Shown here: one piece after another, positions 5,461 through 50,785 of the stretch
Layout of the letters: each line of letters begins with the position of its first letter
Numbering within the stretch: the stretch's first letter is position 1
Source of the DNA: a virus
Strand: one strand, 5' to 3'
IMG/VR virus record: IMGVR_UViG_3300025144_000001
Location: 1 to 63,240 of that record
DNA: 63,240 nt
Made by a program: the position numbers and the translations under genes
The notes under the pieces: model-generated
Databases searched by the model: none
What the model saw: the letters and a program-made list of their open reading frames with translations, nothing else
Told to the model about the DNA's origin: nothing

Positions 5461-8415
5461 TTAGCTGCCAAGCGATTCAGTGTAAATCCAACGGGAAATC
5501 TCCACGCCGATAATCTTCACCAACTGCGCTAACTGTTCGCTCGGCATATTTCGCATAAACTCAAGGAAAGACGAATATGAGAAAGCCCATTTCTCCAATC
5601 CTTCGCGTCCTTCAGGGAAAATGTCTGGAATCACTGATTCTAATGCTTCGGCTCTGCTTGGGAGGTATGCGTAGCCCGGATAGCCTGATAATACTTGCCA
5701 AAGCCGATAGCGTGGAACCCATGTTTCCTTCACTTGTGTCCATGTGCCGCGTGGCCGCCGATATCCTGTTCTCACATTGCCCCCCACACCTGCTCCTCCT
5801 CCTCTTCCTTCTCCTCTACTTCCTCTTCCACCGAATACGCGGCTTTCATATTCTTCACGCGTTTCAGTTTGCGGTGGACCCTCCGTCCATGTCTTCGTAA
5901 CTGGATTCCAATACTCCGTAATCAAGTAACCCTCCTCCGTCCGCGTCCTCACTGGTTCAGGCGGTAAGTCCACATATTCACCGATTGCAGTCGCACTTTC
6001 CTCCGGCGTCAACGAGTACGGTAGCCATGCGGGAACGTTGCCGCGGAAGCCCGATGGCACAATTCCCTGCCACGGGTCATAGCCTAAACCTAAAGCTTCA
6101 CGCATCTGTCCGTAGGTGCCGTAAGCATAATATTGTTCCGTATACCATTCCTCGAAACGTCTCGGTGGCAATTGCGCTTGCGTGTACGCCCGCATTTCCT
6201 CGTATGTTGGTCGCGGGATCCATCCGCCTTCACGGAACCTCGGCATCATTCGCCACGCACGCCAAGCCGCTGACACATCTACGCCGAACTGCTCCCATGC
6301 CTGTCCGTACAAGCCTCTTGCACGCCTTCGCTCCGCATAAAACTCCTCACGCCACTGCCTCCCCGCTTGCCGACGCATCATCCATTGATTATACCGTTTC
6401 CAAAATTCGTATTGCTGCACTAGTTCTGGCGGCTGATATCCGTAACCCGCGTAACCGAATTGCCGTTCCATATATGTTAGTTGCGGTAAGCCACCGTAAA
6501 TTGCGCCAGTCGTAACCGCCCATCGTTGCGCGTACTGTTGTAATGCCGCCCACTCCGCACCCGTCGGTATCGCACCGTAAACTGGACCGCGTAAATATTG
6601 CTGCCGCTCCCACTGCTGTTGTTGCCACCGCTCCAAATATGACAACTGCGTTAAACCCCGACCATACATCAACGGCGCAAGCGGATCTACCGCACCCGCT
6701 CTTTCGGCTTGCCGTTGTAAAGTCCAAGCTCTTTCTTGGGGGCTAACTAGAGGACCCAATCCTCCGTAAGCTTGTGGCCATGGGAAACCCGCGGGGCCAA
6801 TTATGCCTCCGGCTGCAACATATGCTTGCGTACTAGTTGTCGGTGCCCCAGCGAATTGTCGAAGATACTCGGCGTAAAAAGGTTGGGCAACTTGCAGTCC
6901 CGCTCCTAACATCTCTAAGCCGAGGAATGTGTAAGCTATTGGGCCTGCCACTGCAGCTATGGGAGCTAATTGCGCGGCTGCACCAGCCCCCCTTCCAACT
7001 AAACTTGGAGCTAGGCGTTCAATACCCCACTCTAATCCACGTGCAGCCCAAGGTGCCGCCGCTACGCCAACATACGCACCAACCGCACCGTAGGCGGGAC
7101 CCATAAAACCAGTAACTTGTTCAGGTTGCGCACCCGCCGCTACTGCAATTTGCTGTTCAAGCCAAGTGCCACCGCGAAAACCAACCTCCCAACCAACAAA
7201 CGCACCCGCAAACCGCGCCGCACGCGCATACCATGGACGGGCTGTAGGTGCAAAAGCGGTTGGAACTTGTCGAGGTGGAATAAGTTGCTCATACGATATA
7301 TAACGTCCACCAGTTAATTCGGTTAAATATCGTCCACCAAAATTATAACTGGGAAACGCACTTGAAACTCCTAAAGGTATTACATCCGCTGTAAGCCCTA
7401 CACCTGCGAAACGTCCTCCTAACCTAGACATTACCCATGATGTTATTCGAGGCATCTGCCATTGAGCTAAAACACCTGCCCCAATCATTCCTCCACCTAA
7501 AGCCATTTGTTGGTATGCCTGCGTATACTCCGCAGCGGAAATCGGAATGCCAACGGTTTCCCGCGCAGCCAATGTTGCTAAATTCGACATAACCATTTCT
7601 AAGCCGGGTTGCATAAGCGAGATTGGACCCATCCACTGCATTGTCCGTCCAAGTCCACGCATTCCACCCCGCATTAAAGCTTGAATACCCCAGAAACCCA
7701 TCTGTCCGAAAGTCCACTCACCCAGCGAACTGACACCTATCTCCCCCCAAGTTGGAAATTGGTAAGGCCAAAACGCGGTGCTTGTCAATATGCGTTGTTG
7801 CGCCATCGGTCCCGTTTCCCAAGCTGCTTGAACATAAGGAGCCATAGCCGCAGCCGCGCCTAAACGCTGCTCCGCACCGTAAAACGGAAATCCCAATGCC
7901 CGTATAATTGCTGCTTGTGGAAAAGCGTAGGAAGCTAATTTTACGCCTCCCCAAGTTAACGCGGGACCCGTCCACTGTTGCTGAAACTGCCAGTACGCTG
8001 TTCTCGCACGTTCCGCTTCAATCTGCCCCATCCTATACGGGCTAATGTAACCGTACAAGCCCATGGTTCTTTCCGCGGCAGCAAGATCGTAAGTTAAGCC
8101 ATACCGCCCATAAGTCACATCTTGAAGTCGACCCGCATAAGTGAACTGCTCCCAACCCGCTGGTGTTGGAAGTAAGCCAGCTCGAGATGCCCGTTCATAC
8201 ATGCCGTAACCGTAAAACGGCGCTAAACCAATCGGTGTAAGCGGCATCCAAGCCATACTGCCCGCTAAACGCCTCATCTCCACTTCTTCGGGTATGTATG
8301 GAAACCGCGTTCTCCATTCTTCTCGGGCTTGCCCAGTTCGCACTAATAGTTCTTGTAGCCATTGCGGTAGGTCGCGGAAGTATTCGGGGGGTTCTTCGCG
8401 AACGGGTTCGCTCAA
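5461..8415 (-). CDS. Tape measure protein
   Basis: 984 aa, the longest structural gene. It is rich in Trp, Tyr, Gly, Ala and Gln, with several long hydrophobic segments between about residues 225 and 530 and an Arg/Trp/Tyr-rich second half. That composition, its length and its place right after the frameshifted tail chaperones identify it as tape measure. By the usual rule of about 1.5 angstrom per residue it would specify a tail of roughly 150 nm. The start is TTG at 8415, overlapping the stop of the frameshifted chaperone product (TTGA). Confidence 0.85.
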   Translation of the reverse strand: MSEPVREEPPEYFRDLPQWLQELLVRTGQAREEWRTRFPYIPEEVEMRRLAGSMAWMPLTPIGLAPFYGYGMYERASRAGLLPTPAGWEQFTYAGRLQDVTYGRYGLTYDLAAAERTMGLYGYISPYRMGQIEAERARTAYWQFQQQWTGPALTWGGVKLASYAFPQAAIIRALGFPFYGAEQRLGAAAAMAPYVQAAWETGPMAQQRILTSTAFWPYQFPTWGEIGVSSLGEWTFGQMGFWGIQALMRGGMRGLGRTMQWMGPISLMQPGLEMVMSNLATLAARETVGIPISAAEYTQAYQQMALGGGMIGAGVLAQWQMPRITSWVMSRLGGRFAGVGLTADVIPLGVSSAFPSYNFGGRYLTELTGGRYISYEQLIPPRQVPTAFAPTARPWYARAARFAGAFVGWEVGFRGGTWLEQQIAVAAGAQPEQVTGFMGPAYGAVGAYVGVAAAPWAARGLEWGIERLAPSLVGRGAGAAAQLAPIAAVAGPIAYTFLGLEMLGAGLQVAQPFYAEYLRQFAGAPTTSTQAYVAAGGIIGPAGFPWPQAYGGLGPLVSPQERAWTLQRQAERAGAVDPLAPLMYGRGLTQLSYLERWQQQQWERQQYLRGPVYGAIPTGAEWAALQQYAQRWAVTTGAIYGGLPQLTYMERQFGYAGYGYQPPELVQQYEFWKRYNQWMMRRQAGRQWREEFYAERRRARGLYGQAWEQFGVDVSAAWRAWRMMPRFREGGWIPRPTYEEMRAYTQAQLPPRRFEEWYTEQYYAYGTYGQMREALGLGYDPWQGIVPSGFRGNVPAWLPYSLTPEESATAIGEYVDLPPEPVRTRTEEGYLITEYWNPVTKTWTEGPPQTETREEYESRVFGGRGSRGEGRGGGAGVGGNVRTGYRRPRGTWTQVKETWVPRYRLWQVLSGYPGYAYLPSRAEALESVIPDIFPEGREGLEKWAFSYSSFLEFMRNMPSEQLAQLVKIIGVEISRWIYTESLGS

Positions 8416-8884
8416 GTTGTTTCTCCTTTAGGTCGAATCATTTGTTTCTCAAGCTTCAACTGATTCAAAACGGTTTTCCATTCTTTGATCTCCGATTCCG
8501 TCATCTCCAAGACTTCGGGAACCGTAATGGGAATACCAATCCTGAAGGCCGTCGCCGCAATCTCTATGGCTTCGTCTCTGTCTCGGTCTTCCCTAACTTT
8601 TGTAAAAAATCGACATGTTCCTTCCGAATACGCGTCTTCGCATGAAGCGCCGCAATAACCGCGTAAAGCGACTCACCCATCTCACGAACATCCTTCTCGG
8701 ATAAATCGTGGAAATCCTTGTCGTCTCCACCTTTCACGCGGACGGTCTTCACTATCATGCGCAACTCCTCTTCGGCGGGGTCAACCCAACCGAAGGATTC
8801 ATAAAGCGCACGTCGCACTTCAATACGCTCGCCTCTTCGTGGTTCTCTGAACATGTATGTCTTTCCATCTAGCTCATGTTCCAA
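8412..8884 (-). CDS. Tail assembly chaperone, -1 frameshift fusion product (GT-like)
   Basis: The zero-frame chaperone (next entry) shifts to the -1 frame at the heptamer 8603-8609 and then continues for 63 codons (TKVREDRDRD...IRPKGETT) to a TGA at 8412. This open -1 frame has no start of its own near its beginning, fills the otherwise unexplained gap before the tape measure gene, and ends in an overlap with the tape measure TTG. Predicted fusion length is 157 aa from the TTG start. In tailed phages such G/GT pairs chaperone the tape measure during tail assembly. Confidence 0.8.
8564..8884 (-). CDS. Tail assembly chaperone, zero-frame product (G-like)
   Basis: 106 aa from the TTG at 8884 (MEHELDGKTYMF), preceded by GAGGAGGTG at proper spacing. 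A GTG at 8896 lies inside that Shine-Dalgarno and is less likely. The protein is charged and helical (EPRRGERIEVRRAL, DLSEKDVREMGESL), like tail chaperones that recruit tape measure. It ends TETETKP at a TAG at 8564, 13 codons beyond the slippery site. It lies between the major tail protein and tape measure genes, as in lambda-like gene orders. Confidence 0.8.
   Translation of the reverse strand: MEHELDGKTYMFREPRRGERIEVRRALYESFGWVDPAEEELRMIVKTVRVKGGDDKDFHDLSEKDVREMGESLYAVIAALHAKTRIRKEHVDFLQKLGKTETETKP
8603..8609 (-). promoter_or_regulatory. Programmed -1 ribosomal frameshift heptamer T TTT TTA
   Basis: On the coding strand the codons GAT TTT TTA CAA contain T TTT TTA exactly in the X XXY YYZ phase. 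This is the canonical slippery heptamer type, the same as U UUU UUA of HIV-1 gag-pol. The -1 frame is open from here to 8412. No obvious strong stimulatory stem was found downstream by eye. Confidence 0.8.
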
Positions 8885-8930: not shown

Positions 8931-9800
8931 TTATGCTAGGGTTACGTTTTTGGCGATGATGTCGTATATTTCAGCTATGTCGCCGCCGCCAACTGCATAT
9001 TCAATTACTTGGTTTTCCAAGTAGGCATCATCCCACGTGACGGTTTCACCAGTCGTTATGGTCCAAACAATGTCTTTCAACGTTGAATTCCTGAAGTAGC
9101 CGTCGTATGTCGTGCCTGTTTGCTGAATCGCTATGCGTCCACCCGCTTGATGTGGTCCCAACTTAAGCGCACCCATTGTTGCTTGTCCGCCGATCCAAAC
9201 TGGAAACGCGTTGTTGTTGACGCCTGCCATGATGAAGGCCCACTTCGGGGTGTCCGAGCCAATTGTCATGTTTGCACCTGTCATCGATGCGTGGTAACCC
9301 GTTGTTGCCGGGTCGGATGCTTCGGTTGCACCTGTTGGTGGGGATGTGTTGTATGTCGCCAGTCGTCCGATCACTTGCACGTCAGCGGTGACTAAGCCGT
9401 TTGCGCGGCAAACTATTGACGCTGTACCGATTCGGCAGCCAGTCATCGTCAAATAGTTTGTGGTTCCACCCAACGTTATCTTGCCGTACAGTGAAAACGT
9501 GGGTCCACGTGTTCCCGCAGCCGTTCCAACATTAAAGGCTTTCTTGAGGAAATTCAAGTCTTGCGGGAAATAGCTTATTCGCATTCCGCTGATTTGCTGT
9601 CCGTGCGGTACGGGGTTAGCTGCGTTGTCGCTTCCTAGAGCCCAAAACTGAGCTGGTCCAGCTCCGCTCGTCAGAGCGAAACGGGTTTCCAACCCAATCC
9701 ACAGTAACGTCGCATTCGCTGGAAAACTGTCTTCTGTGCTTTCTTCGACATACTGAAGCGCCGTAACGACATCTCGCTCACCTGTGTACGTTACACTCAT
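8931..9800 (-). CDS. Major tail (tube) protein
   Basis: 289 aa, beta-rich, with Gly/Thr/Ala abundance and few charges. It has central FSLYGKITLGG and TADVQVIGRL strands typical of tail tube folds. Position upstream of the chaperone pair and downstream of the tail terminator gives the standard order. It starts from an ATG (MSVTYTGERDV). Identification rests on synteny and composition more than on a recognised motif. Confidence 0.7.
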   Translation of the reverse strand: MSVTYTGERDVVTALQYVEESTEDSFPANATLLWIGLETRFALTSGAGPAQFWALGSDNAANPVPHGQQISGMRISYFPQDLNFLKKAFNVGTAAGTRGPTFSLYGKITLGGTTNYLTMTGCRIGTASIVCRANGLVTADVQVIGRLATYNTSPPTGATEASDPATTGYHASMTGANMTIGSDTPKWAFIMAGVNNNAFPVWIGGQATMGALKLGPHQAGGRIAIQQTGTTYDGYFRNSTLKDIVWTITTGETVTWDDAYLENQVIEYAVGGGDIAEIYDIIAKNVTLA

Positions 9801-12077: not shown

Positions 12078-12433
12078 TAGTAGTCAATCTCGCCGATCGG
12101 CTGGTCATACGTAGTAATCGGCTTCTCTTCATATAAAGCGAATATTTCTTGCGCTTCCTCGAACCAACGTCCCTGCGGCGAATGGATTTCACGGTAGTCG
12201 TCGCCAATTGCTAGTGATTGGGGTTCACGGTTTTTGATTTCAATCGCGGTTAAAAGCGCACTTAAACGCTTAAAGTTGTTCGTATCAGTAGTTCCACTTA
12301 CACTATCTAAACCCGTCCGCTTCTTAATGTAAGCATCCTGCATATCAATCAAGTTTCCAACTACGGTAGCATTCAACGCAGTCGAGTCATAATCAACTAT
12401 CGCCTGCACGTCCGAAACACTACAAAACGCCAT
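12077..12433 (-). CDS. Head-tail connector protein (gp6-like)
   Basis: 118 aa, mostly helical, beginning MAFCSVSDVQAIVDYDS. Small all-helical connector proteins with a 'vxdvqalv..' type N-terminus and length near 110 aa sit downstream of the capsid gene in HK97-like phages. Here the glycan cassette (12.6-19.3 kb) separates it from the capsid gene. AGGTGATTTGA precedes the ATG. Confidence 0.6.
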   Translation of the reverse strand: MAFCSVSDVQAIVDYDSTALNATVVGNLIDMQDAYIKKRTGLDSVSGTTDTNNFKRLSALLTAIEIKNREPQSLAIGDDYREIHSPQGRWFEEAQEIFALYEEKPITTYDQPIGEIDY

Positions 12434-12447
12434 TTCAAATCACCTTT

Positions 12448-12594
12448 TTATTCTTCACTTTCCCAACGATAACCACATGAGCAATGGTGGTATTTCCCAA
12501 CGTGATGCTTCTCGGTTTTATGGCAGATATGTGCTCCGCTTGTCACGGCGCAATGGTCGCCGGGAGCCGCGTTCGTTAAGGCACATTGACTCAT
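12448..12594 (-). CDS. 48-aa Cys/His-rich zinc microprotein
   Basis: It carries five Cys and eight His (CHK, KHHVGKYHHCSCGYRW), enough for one or two zinc sites. It lies between the split transketolase and the connector gene. It starts at the ATG at 12594 and ends at TAA 12448. No known family is recognised. Confidence 0.65.
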   Translation of the reverse strand: MSQCALTNAAPGDHCAVTSGAHICHKTEKHHVGKYHHCSCGYRWESEE

Positions 12595-12596
12595 TT

Positions 12597-13505
12597 TTAA
12601 ATCACTTTGAAGATTGTTTCAGCTATTTTTTCAGGGGTTAAACCGTAAAGACCGCGCAAATACTGTTGCGAGCCGACTTCATAGATGAATTTGTCGGGTA
12701 AGCCGATGCGCTTGAATTTTGCTTTTCGCCCCGATTCGCTAAGGTACTCGGCTACCGCTGAACCTAAACCGCCGATGACACTATGTTCCTCAACCGTGAA
12801 AATCACGCCAGTATCAAACACGGCTTTTCCGAGAATCGCATGGTCAAGCGGCTTAACCGTGTGCATCGAAATCAAACGCGGGTGAAAACTCCATTCCCGA
12901 AGTTTCTCCACGGCTTTCTTAGCGGTGTAAAGCATGTTACCCGTCGCAACGATTGTGAAGTCGCTTCCGTCGACGACGGTTATGCCTTTCCCAACTTCGA
13001 AATCGGGTCTTTCCACGTAAACCAAAGGCTCATTTGCGAGACGAATGTACATTGGCGTTTTCCATTCGACCGATGCTTCCGCCAACGCCGTAGCCTCAAA
13101 TATGTCACCGGGGCATACTACGGTCATGTTTGGAAGCGCACGCATAATCGCAATGTCTTCAGTGGGGTTATGCGTTATTCCCTGCGCACCGTAACATAAA
13201 CCTCCGCCTGACCCGACAAGCTTCACGGGTAAATTTTGTGCGCAAACATCAAGTTTAATTTGTTCGAAGCATCTTCCCGTTATGAACGGCGTAATCGCGT
13301 AGCAATACACGTTTTTGCCTGAAAGCGATAAGCCAGCCGCCACACCGACCATGTTTGCTTCTGCAACTCCGCAGTTGATGAAGCGGTCGGGTAAAGCTGA
13401 CTGAAACGGTTCGAAGAGGTTGAAGCCCATATCCGCTGATAGGAGGAAGATGTTAGGGTTATCTTTTGCCGATGAAAGTATGATGTTGAAGAATTCTTTT
13501 CTCAT
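12597..13505 (-). CDS. Transketolase, C-terminal subunit (pyrimidine-binding and C domains)
   Basis: 302 aa. It covers the second half of transketolase-type enzymes: SADMGFNLFEPF, the conserved INCGVAEANMVGVAAGL motif with the Glu that activates thiamine diphosphate, GGGLCYGAQGITHNPTEDIA, and a C-terminal SVIGGLGSAVAEYL domain. The N-terminal half is the next gene upstream, so the pair forms a two-subunit enzyme. In glycan clusters such split transketolases supply or modify unusual sugar precursors; the substrate here is unknown. Confidence 0.85.
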   Translation of the reverse strand: MRKEFFNIILSSAKDNPNIFLLSADMGFNLFEPFQSALPDRFINCGVAEANMVGVAAGLSLSGKNVYCYAITPFITGRCFEQIKLDVCAQNLPVKLVGSGGGLCYGAQGITHNPTEDIAIMRALPNMTVVCPGDIFEATALAEASVEWKTPMYIRLANEPLVYVERPDFEVGKGITVVDGSDFTIVATGNMLYTAKKAVEKLREWSFHPRLISMHTVKPLDHAILGKAVFDTGVIFTVEEHSVIGGLGSAVAEYLSESGRKAKFKRIGLPDKFIYEVGSQQYLRGLYGLTPEKIAETIFKVI

Positions 13506-13520
13506 TTATCTTCGGACCCG

Positions 13521-14312
13521 TCATTGCGACTCAGCGAAATCAAGTTCCTTCAACGCGGCTTCAAGTTGTTTTTCGTCGGGGCAAAGGTAATGCCATTCCA
13601 AACGGTCTTCCATAAACGATATGCCTTTCCCCTTCACCGTATGCGCGATAATAACGGTTGGTTTTTCGGGAACAAAGGGAACTCCGTCGAAAACATCGAT
13701 TAGCGCATCGAAGCTGTGTCCATCTACTTCCCGCACAATCCAACCGAAACTACGCCATTTCTCACCCAGTGGCTTCAAATTGTCAGTTCGACTGAATGCC
13801 CGCCACTTATTGTAATCCACAACTGCAATTAAGTTGTCAAGTTTACGTTGTGATGCAAATAACGCGGCTTCCCAAGTTGAACCCTCATCGCACTCTCCAT
13901 CACTGAGTAACACGAAGGTTCGGTTTCCCGCTAAAGCCATACCTGTGCCGATGCTTAAGCCATGTCCTAGTGAACCCGTTGTAACTTCAATTTCAGATGT
14001 GCAAACGGATGTTGGGTGTCCGGGTAAACGGCTTCCGTTACTGTGAAAGTTTTTCAGTTCGCTTCGATTAAGGATACCTTGATGTTCAAGAACCACATAT
14101 AACGCAAGTGCGGCATGACCTTTGCTTAAGATAAAGTGATCGTTTTCGCGAAGCACATGAAAGTACAACATGGTTAAAATTTCAACTGTTGAAAGCGAAG
14201 ACCCAATATGCGGCGTATGTGTTGCCGCTGATAACTGCACGATGTCACGTCGAATTTTAACCGCTAGTTCCTTCAGGTAACATGAACTGTGGATTTGACT
14301 TGAACCATTCAA
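13521..14312 (-). CDS. Transketolase, N-terminal subunit (thiamine diphosphate-binding)
   Basis: 263 aa. It shows the cofactor-binding features: PHIGSSLSTVEIL, KGHAALALY, GSLGHGLSIGTGMAL, LSDGECDEGSTWEAALFAS and VDYNKW; the GDGE-x(n)-N type Mg/ThDP motif is present as SDGECDEG...YNKW. Length matches split N-terminal subunits. The ORF start at 14312 overlaps the epimerase gene by 56 nt, so the true start may be further in. It pairs with the downstream gene, 15 nt away. Confidence 0.85.
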   Translation of the reverse strand: MNGSSQIHSSCYLKELAVKIRRDIVQLSAATHTPHIGSSLSTVEILTMLYFHVLRENDHFILSKGHAALALYVVLEHQGILNRSELKNFHSNGSRLPGHPTSVCTSEIEVTTGSLGHGLSIGTGMALAGNRTFVLLSDGECDEGSTWEAALFASQRKLDNLIAVVDYNKWRAFSRTDNLKPLGEKWRSFGWIVREVDGHSFDALIDVFDGVPFVPEKPTVIIAHTVKGKGISFMEDRLEWHYLCPDEKQLEAALKELDFAESQ

Positions 14313-20074: not shown

Positions 20075-20920
20075 CTAAATGGCTGACAATTGGCATATAG
20101 CGTTTGTGTCCCAATGTCGCGGTAGTATGCGTTCCAAAACGTAGCCGTGGATTCCACCCATTTCGTCAGTCCACTCGATGTGCTTCAAGGGTAGGCTTAC
20201 TACGATGTCGCCCCATCCTGGTCCCGCCTCTACCATTAGACCCGTGCCATCGGTTAAGTCAGGTGTAGCCATAACTGTGTCGCTGATGAAGCCACATTTC
20301 TTCACCCAATCCATCGCTGGGATACCTGTGCTTGAGAACACAGTTCCTAATTGCGTGAATTGAGTCGGGTTGAGAGCCATATGGTATGGGGGTTCCCAGT
20401 TTTGAGCCATCATCAACGCAACTGCACCGTCTACAGCTGCAACCACGTTTGTGGCTGTGCCGAAGTCAGCGCTAGTTGAGTAGTTTTGACCCGCATCTCG
20501 GTATAAGCCGTTAATGTCGTAGTTTGTTCCGTTCGCCGAGTAGCCTTGGAACAATAGGTCGTCTTCAAGTTGACCAACCCTATAGGTGGCTGATGCGACA
20601 ACTTGCGTGTCAAGTGGTGTTTGAGTTGTTCGACTTGCTTCAGCCTTAATGTAGTCAATATCGAATTCCTTGTGTAGCGTAGGTATGGGTTTCGTGGTTG
20701 GAGCCAAGTTCGTGATGTCGAAGCTTGTTCCAGGTGTTGGCCATTTGAATTCGAGTTTAGCGGCGCTTACCTCAGTCATCGTGTAGTATGTAACTGCGTC
20801 TTTAATGCCTACGTCATATGTTGCGGGGTAAAGTTTTCTTCCCTTACCCACTACTTGTCGGGCTGCAACTTTAAAGGCATCGTCAATAGCCTTAAACTGT
20901 TCCGCTGTTAAAGCTGCCAT
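20075..20920 (-). CDS. Major capsid protein, encapsulin-like HK97 fold
   Basis: 281 aa. The block IPTLHKEFDIDYIKAEAS...PLDTQVV...LEDDLLFQG corresponds closely to the conserved E-loop/spine segment of encapsulins and encapsulin-like viral capsid proteins. No long N-terminal delta domain is present, in line with a separate scaffold gene upstream. GGTGAAACAAC precedes the ATG. It sits with decoration and scaffold genes in an operon bounded by T-rich tracts. Confidence 0.85.
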   Translation of the reverse strand: MAALTAEQFKAIDDAFKVAARQVVGKGRKLYPATYDVGIKDAVTYYTMTEVSAAKLEFKWPTPGTSFDITNLAPTTKPIPTLHKEFDIDYIKAEASRTTQTPLDTQVVASATYRVGQLEDDLLFQGYSANGTNYDINGLYRDAGQNYSTSADFGTATNVVAAVDGAVALMMAQNWEPPYHMALNPTQFTQLGTVFSSTGIPAMDWVKKCGFISDTVMATPDLTDGTGLMVEAGPGWGDIVVSLPLKHIEWTDEMGGIHGYVLERILPRHWDTNAICQLSAI

Positions 20921-20932
20921 GTTGTTTCACCT

Positions 20933-39320: not shown

Positions 39321-42068
39321 CTACTTTAATTCTTTAAGTCGCTTCACAATTTCATCGTGACTAACATCGGGAAACACGTGTTTCGAATAATCTTCCTCGT
39401 CGACTGCACCTACGATTTCGGTTCCAAGCTCCTTACTCATCTTCACGTAATCCTTGAAGTCCTTCCACAAGTTTTGATAGCCGATTTGGGGAATGATAAT
39501 TTTTTGAAATTTCTCTTCGCGTGCTGCGTCGAGTTTTCCCGCGCCTCGTTTGGGTTGAATGCCGCCGACAAGACCAGCTTTGCCGTTCATGGATACTTTA
39601 CCAGTCATGCAGATGTTGGGTGATGCGGGTGTTTTTGTTAAGGCACTTATCATCGCCATTAAAATTGCCATTCCTGCACTTGGCCCCGAAGCTTTTTGCG
39701 TGTCGATGTCCACGCCTTCGCTTGGGGAAAGCATGTGTACGTAAATGTCGAAGTCCATGATGTTCAGGCAGTGCTTGCGCAAATATGTGCGTCCAATCCG
39801 CGCTGACTCCTTAATGCTTTCATTAACGGTTCCGTAAACCTCGATTACGCCTTCATTCTTCTTTATTGCTGGGAAGATTTGGCATTCAATCGGCAGCACC
39901 ATTCCCGTTTGCCCTTCGCTATCAGTGGCTAAACCAAATGTTTTCCCGACTTCCGGCTGACCGCTACGATATATGGCCTGCATCTGTCGAAGCTCCCGCA
40001 TCTCATCTGTCTCCGCCTTCTTCTCAAATGCCTTCTCCAAATGAAACAGGCGAATCTTCCACTTCTCCGGCGTAATGTTCGCGTAAACCCCATGCAAATC
40101 CTTTTCATTATTGTTCACCGTTTTGTTTAACGCAAGTATCTGTTGAATCCGCGTAAACTCGTCCTTCCACGCTAACCGAATGTCCTTGATCTTCTCCGGA
40201 AACATTCCACTAACAGCGTCCACAAGCTTCATCGTAGCCTGAATCTCCTTCGCACGCAAACTATTCGCATCAAGCACAACATCCGCTATGATTCGCGGCG
40301 AAAACGTCTTTTGAAGGAAAATCTTCATCGCTGAATCCGTGGTAACTTCATCATGTAAATGCTCCTTCACATAGCCCAAGTGAACCGCTAAAACCTCACG
40401 TTTCTCCTCAACCGATTTCGGATATGGAAACTCGAATTGGCGACTGAGCCTATCTTTCACGCCGGGATCGATGATGTCGAGGCGGTTAGTTGCACCGATA
40501 ACGACAACATTTCCCAATGGGTTAAAACCGTCGAGTTCCGCGAGAAGCGCAGCAGTTACAGTTTGAGATACTCCTGCATCGCCGAAGCGGGATCCACGTA
40601 TAGGTGCAAGTGCATCAATTTCGTCGAGGAAAAGTATGCTCGGCGCATGTTTCTTAGCGTTTGCGAACACGTCCCGCACACCCTTCTCGCTTTCACCAAC
40701 CAAACCCGTCATAAGTGACGGTCCTTTAACAAGGAAGAAGTTCACTTGATTCTCATTCGCAATCGCTTTCGCGAGAAGTGTTTTTCCGGTTCCTGGTGGT
40801 CCGTGGAACAAAAAGCCCTTGGGCGGTCTGTATCCGACTTTGCGGGCTTGATCCGCGTCCATTGCAAGCATGATTTCCTTGATTACATTGGGTTTAACGT
40901 CGTGCAGTCCACCGATGTCTTTGTAGCGTTCCCACGACTTCACCATTTGATGCGCTTCTTTCGCGGAAGCAGTCATTTCGCGTTCCGTGTACGCGATTAC
41001 TTTAGGGATTATTTTCGCGAAGTCATTGTACTCGTATTTCGGCGGTTCAAGTTTTGCGGCTTCACCTGACTTGAACATGGATTCGTGGATTGGTTTCTCC
41101 TTCTCTTCGACGAGATATTGGAATGTTTTTATAATGTTGTCGGGTACAACTTGTGTGTGTCCACGTGTGCGAAACGCTTCCTCCATCTTCTGCAAAATCT
41201 TCTCATCTTCAAATCCTTCGATATGATACTTTGCGCATTGACGGTTTATCAGTTCAAGCAACATTGGCCGCGTGATGCCTAAATCCAAGTCGAGGATTGC
41301 ACTTCGCCGTCGAATTGTCTCGAGAAGCGACTCGTACTTATCCGTTGAAAAAATAATGATGCTACGAAAATCTTTCGCCTGAAGCAAATCAATCTTCTGC
41401 AAAATTGTGCCTTGAACCTTCTGATCTTCACCGCTTTCATCGCTCGCCTGCTCCCAACGCCCGCCTTTCTTCGCGAAATTCTGCGCTTCATCAATCAAGC
41501 AAACCGTCGGTGTCGCAATAACCTCGTTAAGCATTTGCGCCACCTTGCGTGAAGATTCGCCGTACCACATGGTGTATATTTCGCTTGCCATGATGACTTT
41601 CGGGTTGACGATGTAGCCGTCTTTCAATCCACGTTCAAAGGCTTCCCGCTGAATTGCCTTCACCAAAAACGTTTTACCTGTACCACTTGCGCCTTTAACA
41701 CAAAACACTTTCGGCGGCGGATTCTTCAACTGTTCCCGTAACTTCGGGTCGCGCAAAACCCAATAATGCACACTCGTAAGCAAAACGCTTTTCTCAGTAT
41801 CGCGACCGACAACTTCGTTAAGCGTAACATGGGGAAAATCAGGTTTAACGCGATATTGCATACTCCACTTCTGCACTTTCTTCATACGCTTCTTCTCCGA
41901 AAGAAGACTGAATCGATGAAACCTGTATTCTTTCGAAGTTAGGTGAATCAACGGGCGATACAATACGCGGAACCATTTATGGCGATACCAATAGAATTGG
42001 GCTAAAGGCGCTTCCACCACATCCATGTAGGCTTTATCCGCGTCTTTTGGTTGCCAAGGTTTCCTCAT
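39321..42068 (-). CDS. AAA-AAA-Lon protease fusion
   Basis: 915 aa. AAA domain 1: Walker A GASGTGKT (126-133) and Walker B LIDEA (191-195). AAA domain 2, Cdc48/FtsH-like: Walker A GPPGTGKT (423-430), Walker B LDEID and an ATNRLDIID/arginine-finger region. The C-terminal ~200 residues are a Lon-type protease: Ser797 in GPSAG and Lys840 in GGIQPKRGAG, 43 residues apart as in E. coli Lon (Ser679/Lys722). Archaeal LonB has one AAA domain and a membrane anchor; neither is the plan here. It likely unfolds and degrades selected proteins in the host cell. Confidence 0.9.
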   Translation of the reverse strand: MRKPWQPKDADKAYMDVVEAPLAQFYWYRHKWFRVLYRPLIHLTSKEYRFHRFSLLSEKKRMKKVQKWSMQYRVKPDFPHVTLNEVVGRDTEKSVLLTSVHYWVLRDPKLREQLKNPPPKVFCVKGASGTGKTFLVKAIQREAFERGLKDGYIVNPKVIMASEIYTMWYGESSRKVAQMLNEVIATPTVCLIDEAQNFAKKGGRWEQASDESGEDQKVQGTILQKIDLLQAKDFRSIIIFSTDKYESLLETIRRRSAILDLDLGITRPMLLELINRQCAKYHIEGFEDEKILQKMEEAFRTRGHTQVVPDNIIKTFQYLVEEKEKPIHESMFKSGEAAKLEPPKYEYNDFAKIIPKVIAYTEREMTASAKEAHQMVKSWERYKDIGGLHDVKPNVIKEIMLAMDADQARKVGYRPPKGFLFHGPPGTGKTLLAKAIANENQVNFFLVKGPSLMTGLVGESEKGVRDVFANAKKHAPSILFLDEIDALAPIRGSRFGDAGVSQTVTAALLAELDGFNPLGNVVVIGATNRLDIIDPGVKDRLSRQFEFPYPKSVEEKREVLAVHLGYVKEHLHDEVTTDSAMKIFLQKTFSPRIIADVVLDANSLRAKEIQATMKLVDAVSGMFPEKIKDIRLAWKDEFTRIQQILALNKTVNNNEKDLHGVYANITPEKWKIRLFHLEKAFEKKAETDEMRELRQMQAIYRSGQPEVGKTFGLATDSEGQTGMVLPIECQIFPAIKKNEGVIEVYGTVNESIKESARIGRTYLRKHCLNIMDFDIYVHMLSPSEGVDIDTQKASGPSAGMAILMAMISALTKTPASPNICMTGKVSMNGKAGLVGGIQPKRGAGKLDAAREEKFQKIIIPQIGYQNLWKDFKDYVKMSKELGTEIVGAVDEEDYSKHVFPDVSHDEIVKRLKELK

Positions 42069-50233: not shown

Positions 50234-50785
50234 TCACTCATCTTTCTCCTTTTGTTTTCTTTCTTCACGTCGAATCTGCTTCATTCTTTCAACGGTTAAA
50301 AAACTTGAACGGGGGTCGTTGAACGGTTGGTCGTTGAGGTTTCCACGCATGTATTCAATGAACGACCAAAGCCATTTGCGGAATCCGTAGCGGTTGTTTT
50401 CGATTTCAGCCCATTGTATCAGGTCTTCGGCGATGTGGATGACTGCGTAGCCCATTCGGTCGCGTAATATGTGGTCGGTTACGTTGTCGCGGTCAATCTG
50501 TTTGGCGTCCTCGTGGGGTTTTCCGTCAACGTAGATTGCGACTTTATCTTTTTCATACAGGAAATCGGGTTTCGTACCCTTTCGGCCAGTTTCAACTTGC
50601 ACGTCCTCGGTGAACTCTATGAAGTGTTGCGGTTGGTTGTTCGGGGGTGGGGTGGGTTCAAGTTTGAATGCGGTGTCGCTGTAAAGAAATTTCCGTACGC
50701 GCATCTCGAGGCTTGTGTCCTGCGGAATCTTGCGCGGATCTATTTTCTGGGCGACAATCGGGTATAATGCGTAGCTTCTACTCAT
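50234..50785 (-). CDS. PD-(D/E)XK endonuclease, Vsr/DUF559-like
   Basis: 183 aa. LEMRVRKFLY, then KPDFLYEKDKVAIYVDGKPHED and DRDNVTDHILRDRMGYAVIHI give the Vsr-like endonuclease core (Asp, and IYVDG-x-x-H). The charged C-terminal tail may bind DNA. It would nick or cut DNA during repair or degradation of host DNA. Confidence 0.7.
   Translation of the reverse strand: MSRSYALYPIVAQKIDPRKIPQDTSLEMRVRKFLYSDTAFKLEPTPPPNNQPQHFIEFTEDVQVETGRKGTKPDFLYEKDKVAIYVDGKPHEDAKQIDRDNVTDHILRDRMGYAVIHIAEDLIQWAEIENNRYGFRKWLWSFIEYMRGNLNDQPFNDPRSSFLTVERMKQIRREERKQKEKDE

Follow-up and report, generated by a model that had tools for sequence, protein, structure and literature searches.

A candidate U UUU UUA frameshift site in a putative tail assembly chaperone gene of a probably archaeal virus

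The window analyzed here, by which we mean the whole stretch of DNA, comprises the 63240 bases of a virus record, represented by a single metagenomic contig. On its minus strand, between genes for a tail tube and a putative tape measure, lies a small open reading frame that appears to be continued in the −1 frame after a slippery heptamer. The features of the locus are as follows:

8931..9800, minus strand: major tail (tube) protein, directly upstream of G (Phage_tube_2, phrog_290 and Nvie1 homology)
8564..8884, minus strand: G ORF, putative zero-frame tail assembly chaperone, 106 aa (ORF with Shine-Dalgarno sequence, between the tail tube and putative tape-measure genes)
8619..8625, minus strand: weak Shine-Dalgarno-like GGAAGGA, located 9 nt before the heptamer (duplex −5.7 kcal/mol)
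8603..8609, minus strand: slippery heptamer T TTT TTA in X XXY YYZ phase
8412..8603, minus strand: T region, an extension of 63 codons and TGA in the −1 frame (codon usage; homology to the −1 frame of the relative G013)
8528..8593, minus strand: possible 3′ stimulatory stem-loop, GGGAA G ACCGA ... UUGGU A UUCCC (folding z-scores)
5461..8415, minus strand: 984-aa ORF with a TTG start, putative tape measure (assigned solely from its position and length)

The G ORF starts with TTG at 8884, is preceded at a distance of 8 nt by a strong Shine-Dalgarno sequence (GGAGGTG, duplex −14.0 kcal/mol), and stops with TAG at 8566-8564. The zero-frame codons at the heptamer are GTC GAT TTT TTA CAA AAG; T TTT TTA is the sole in-phase X XXY YYZ motif within G, and 12 sense codons separate it from the TAG. 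The stop codon of T (TGA, 8414-8412) overlaps the TTG (8415-8413) of the 984-aa ORF in the letters TTGA, and the predicted G-T fusion, GT, would have 157 aa. The coordinates given by an earlier sequence-only reading of this DNA all hold on the minus strand. It had also described a −1 frame of 63 codons ending in overlap with the tape-measure start and a 157-aa product, and the sequence agrees; the 13 codons that it counted from the heptamer to the zero-frame stop are the 12 sense codons and the stop itself.

The G protein had no significant match in PHROG or Pfam, and the 984-aa ORF had no family match; neither the phage collection nor the records searched contained a relative of it. The identity of the neighborhood is given by the tail tube protein, which matched phrog_290 (tail) with an E-value of 3.5e-8 and the Pfam family Phage_tube_2 with an E-value of 1.8e-5, just below the curated cut-off. 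Its sole homologue among 50,697 phage records was the major tail protein gp17 of a provirus of Nitrososphaera, Nvie1 (25%, E-value 2e-4). With this archaeal provirus as the only relative of its tail tube, the virus is likely to have an archaeal host. The terminase, on the other hand, is about equally near to those of Thermus phiFa, Tunturi_4 and the haloarchaeal virus Hardycor1; it is situated further along the window, as are the portal, the protease and an HK97-type capsid candidate. The window also encodes a 915-aa protein (39321-42068, minus strand) with CDC48/PAN-like AAA domains and a C-terminal Lon protease domain, which is unusual for a virus; when examined for information on the host, it gave none.

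The −1 frame T is clearly coding, and its codon usage is ordinary for the genome. Its mean codon log-likelihood was 0.164, compared with 0.152 ± 0.081 in the window's real genes; of 970 stretches without a stop in alternative frames, not one scored as high. In-phase X XXY YYZ motifs occur at 0.43% of codons, so that any such heptamer would be expected by chance in the 36-codon overlap with a probability of about 0.14; the heptamer alone is therefore weak evidence. As a predicted shift site it becomes convincing once it is joined with the coding −1 frame and with relatives that share the layout. In-phase T TTT TTA is rare, with two cases in the gene set. The other case in the window, at 50303 in a Vsr/DUF559-like nuclease ORF (50234-50785, minus strand), lies 23 codons from the end and is probably due to chance.

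Direct homologue searches with the window's G, tail tube, terminase alone or T domain found little. Three relatives were nevertheless reached through the tail tube: L002 by a direct tail-tube scan, Nvie1 from the phage collection, and G013 by terminase alignment, after which the records were scanned with a tail-tube profile. Each of the three has an ORF of chaperone size that carries an in-phase heptamer and is continued by a −1 extension. In G013 the heptamer is A AAU UUU, at three codons from the stop; its T likewise lies in the −1 frame between the tail tube and the tape measure. L002 has A AAA AAA/AAC (A AAA AAC in phase), and Nvie1 has C CCU UUG directly before UGA.

Alignment of the −1 frame with that of relatives, which the sequence-only reading had proposed as a check, showed conservation at the protein level in G013: T of the window and T of G013 aligned with a score of 46, shuffled sequences scored 20.6 ± 3.8, and 0 of 2000 shuffles reached the observed value. 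The aligned homologous stretches of the two T regions are IEIAATAFRIGIPITVPEVL / IYLSMACAKLGIPISLPELL. Homology of the T domain was undetectable in the more distant L002 and Nvie1, and the G domain had no significant similarity to the G of the relatives, with a weak similarity to that of Nvie1 (shuffle fraction 0.04). Tail chaperone ORFs are known for their low sequence similarity (PMC5009743). Because every tail-tube relative has a different heptamer, it is the position and phase of the site that are conserved and not its sequence. The expected conservation of the heptamer was thus borne out in part, with an in-phase heptamer in three of three tail-tube relatives and a differing sequence. The outcomes named beforehand as counting against the reading, namely relatives with one unbroken frame or lacking an in-phase site, or an unconserved −1 frame, were not seen here. 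U-run, A-run and mixed heptamers are freely exchanged within this group, whereas the predicted shift site keeps its place and phase.

The two Nvie1 genes at 12237-12826 (L003, FR725450.1) were deposited separately as gp18 and gp19, the latter with a GTG start. The in-phase C CCU UUG immediately ahead of the gp18 stop, with GAGGAGG 14 nt upstream, suggests that they make up one recoded tail chaperone gene.

Other chaperone genes were surveyed as well. The ORF19 of the methanogen virus psiM2 (L097:13209-13948), which precedes the tape measure, carries an in-phase A AAA AAG and a −1 extension of 55 aa, BJ1 has a gene before the tape measure with G GGA AAC and a −1 extension, and in Hardycor1 the published G GGA AAT was seen. 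By sequence, these three fit the pattern of the window, but not every archaeal case does: in psiM100 and HGTV-1 the −1 frame is open without a canonical heptamer, and in Drs3 the extension is in the +1 frame.

The heptamer T TTT TTA itself was met again in G019 (L158:13338-13912, contig IMGVR_UViG_3300035698_011486), where it lies within an overlap of 8 codons. This locus came from a survey of terminase relatives that required a heptamer, and it is therefore not an unbiased sample. The chaperone of G019 is Hardycor1-like: its T shows homology to the Hardycor1 T (score 52, z 8.8), and its G aligns end to end at low identity. The tail tube of G019 resembles those of Bacillus phages and Haloarcula viruses alike, which makes its host uncertain. 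A profile comparison between the chaperone family of the window and the Hardycor1/G019 family revealed no link, and the same heptamer is accordingly present in two putative chaperone families without a detectable relation. A further in-phase T TTT TTA, in a chaperone-like ORF at L015:9827-10488, was not counted as firm, as it is placed 24 codons before the stop and T there has an ATGA start overlap.

Gene order, phase, the coding T and the layout in relatives agree with a G/GT tail chaperone pair with a −1 site, as had been proposed from the letters of the window. We consider it highly probable that the gene is a tail-chaperone −1 frameshift gene of the lambda G/GT type with the slip at U UUU UUA. 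The shift could also occur one step later, at the A_AAG of CAA AAG on the 3′ side of the heptamer, or at both places, given the sequence GATTTTTTACAAAAGTTAGG at the site and the tendency of A_AAG to shift in E. coli (PMC5009743). The product of such a shift would read DFLQKVRED, and that of a shift at the heptamer DFLTKVRED. However, A_AAG would allow only a single-tRNA slip with poor re-pairing of the P-site CAA, while a canonical tandem site is located directly upstream and the relatives have tandem heptamers, so we regard a shift at A_AAG as unlikely.

Two explanations dispense with a ribosomal shift and make use of the run of T at the site. Transcriptional slippage on T6 would add one U to some of the mRNAs, join the frames and yield the same fusion. 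A run of six bases is short for polymerase slippage, though, and no long run exists in the relatives with A AAU UUU, C CCU UUG and G GGA AAC, which leaves this explanation very improbable. The contig, a single metagenomic one with a homopolymer at this point, might instead be missing one T, either because of an error in assembly or sequencing or through a genuine frameshift mutation, with G and T forming one continuous gene, since a single added T would bring them into one frame. Yet the split layout recurs in known archaeal viruses as well as in all three relatives reached through the tail tube, and the codon usage of T is intact, so that an artifact or mutation of this kind is hardly credible. 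Finally, T could be a gene in its own right, translated from an independent start, in line with the deposited gp19 of Nvie1 and the ATGA overlap in L015. The first ATG, GTG or TTG of the −1 frame is the TTG at 8510, the other starts coming later still; T therefore lacks a start codon early enough to retain its conserved part, and initiation at 8510 would lose the conserved upstream stretch. We assign a negligible probability to independent initiation of T.

Sequences flanking the heptamer were considered as possible stimulators of a shift at U UUU UUA. The predicted stem-loop begins 9 nt 3′ of the heptamer; its z-score was −3.1 to −3.45 in windows of 75-81 nt, and none of 85 in-gene windows was as stable, but at other window lengths the z-score was only −1.0 to −2.4. 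As a stimulator this modeled structure is suggestive only. The upstream GGAAGGA was dropped as an internal Shine-Dalgarno stimulator, as 23% of in-gene windows were equally strong and it was indistinguishable from chance.

The arrangement closely resembles that of gpG/gpGT of phage lambda, with which the window shares the placement of G and then T between the tail tube and the tape measure, the predicted −1 shift near the end of G, the −1 frame of T and the T stop adjoining the tape-measure start. Counterparts of lambda G/GT occur in most long-tailed phages. The heptamer of lambda is G GGA AAG, whereas that of the window is U UUU UUA; unlike lambda, the window has a chaperone without a match to a known family and a possible 3′ stem-loop. 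The sequence-only reading had set the site apart from the other heptamers at which phage tail chaperones often frameshift. This contrast was overstated, as TTTTTTG, which differs by one base, serves P2 and its relatives for a −1 shift that extends E (91 aa) to E+E′ (142 aa) (PMC3091744). In P2 and the P2-like KS5, KS14 and KL3 the heptamer is all-U as in the window, with G and not A as the Z base. P2 has a bacterial host and was reported without a 3′ structure, in contrast to the possible stem-loop of the window.

In archaeal viruses, −1 frameshifting in tail chaperones has been reported for HVTV-1, HCTV-1/2/5 and Hardycor1 (PMC8211752; PMC7911831). The heptamers are GGGAAAC, AAAAAAC and GGGAAAG in HCTV-1, 2 and 5, respectively (PMC5009743), and GGGAAAT in Hardycor1 (PMC7911831). 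All of these viruses have the same gene pair with a predicted −1 shift at X XXY YYZ, and there is no all-U site among these reported heptamers. A heptamer identical to that of the window operates in HIV-1 gag-pol, where gene and function are unrelated; the downstream stem is much less certain in the window, and the spacer there is 9 nt. The U_UUU_UUA sequence has been tested in synthetic constructs in E. coli, in which it was less shift-prone than A_AAA_AAG (PMC5009743). No report of it in a tail chaperone was found in the literature searched, the coverage of which was incomplete. The choice of heptamer thus looks new for archaeal-type viruses, as a variant of a known scheme. The suggestion that the locus extends the known sites stands for the heptamer in archaeal-type viruses; chaperone frameshifting in such viruses had already been reported.

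By resemblance to this family of genes (PMC5009743), slippage, its rate, a contribution of the stem and the roles of the chaperones may be pictured as follows. Most ribosomes would translate G (106 aa) and terminate at the TAG. A minority would slip back by one base as the Phe- and Leu-tRNA leave UUU UUA and pair with UUU UUU, and would read on into T to produce the 157-aa GT. If the roles correspond to those of lambda gpG/gpGT, G would coat the tape measure protein and the T domain would recruit the tail tube protein, and the slip rate would set the ratio of G to GT for tail assembly.

That archaeal ribosomes shift to the −1 frame at U UUU UUA, aided by the 3′ stem-loop, and in this way make a viral tail chaperone is an idea that we put forward tentatively. 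The original wording, that the site shows archaeal ribosomes to recode at it, goes beyond the evidence, all of which is sequence. Should the idea be true, this would be the first all-U recoding site in archaea, occurring in at least two unrelated archaeal-type chaperone families (those of the window and G019). Direct experimental evidence of archaeal −1 frameshifting comes from a single cellular gene, Sulfolobus fucA1, in which it has been established (PMC8211752); its heptamer differs from that of the window, and it codes for a cellular enzyme. The window would offer a concrete cassette for −1 frameshifting in archaea outside the haloarchaea.

Some further observations concern other parts of the window. 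Between the tail and head modules, a transketolase is split into C and N parts encoded by two genes (12597-14312, minus strand), which are inserted together with an epimerase and other sugar-related genes. The putative major capsid protein (20075-20926, minus strand) matches the encapsulin family Linocin_M18 with an E-value of 6e-22.
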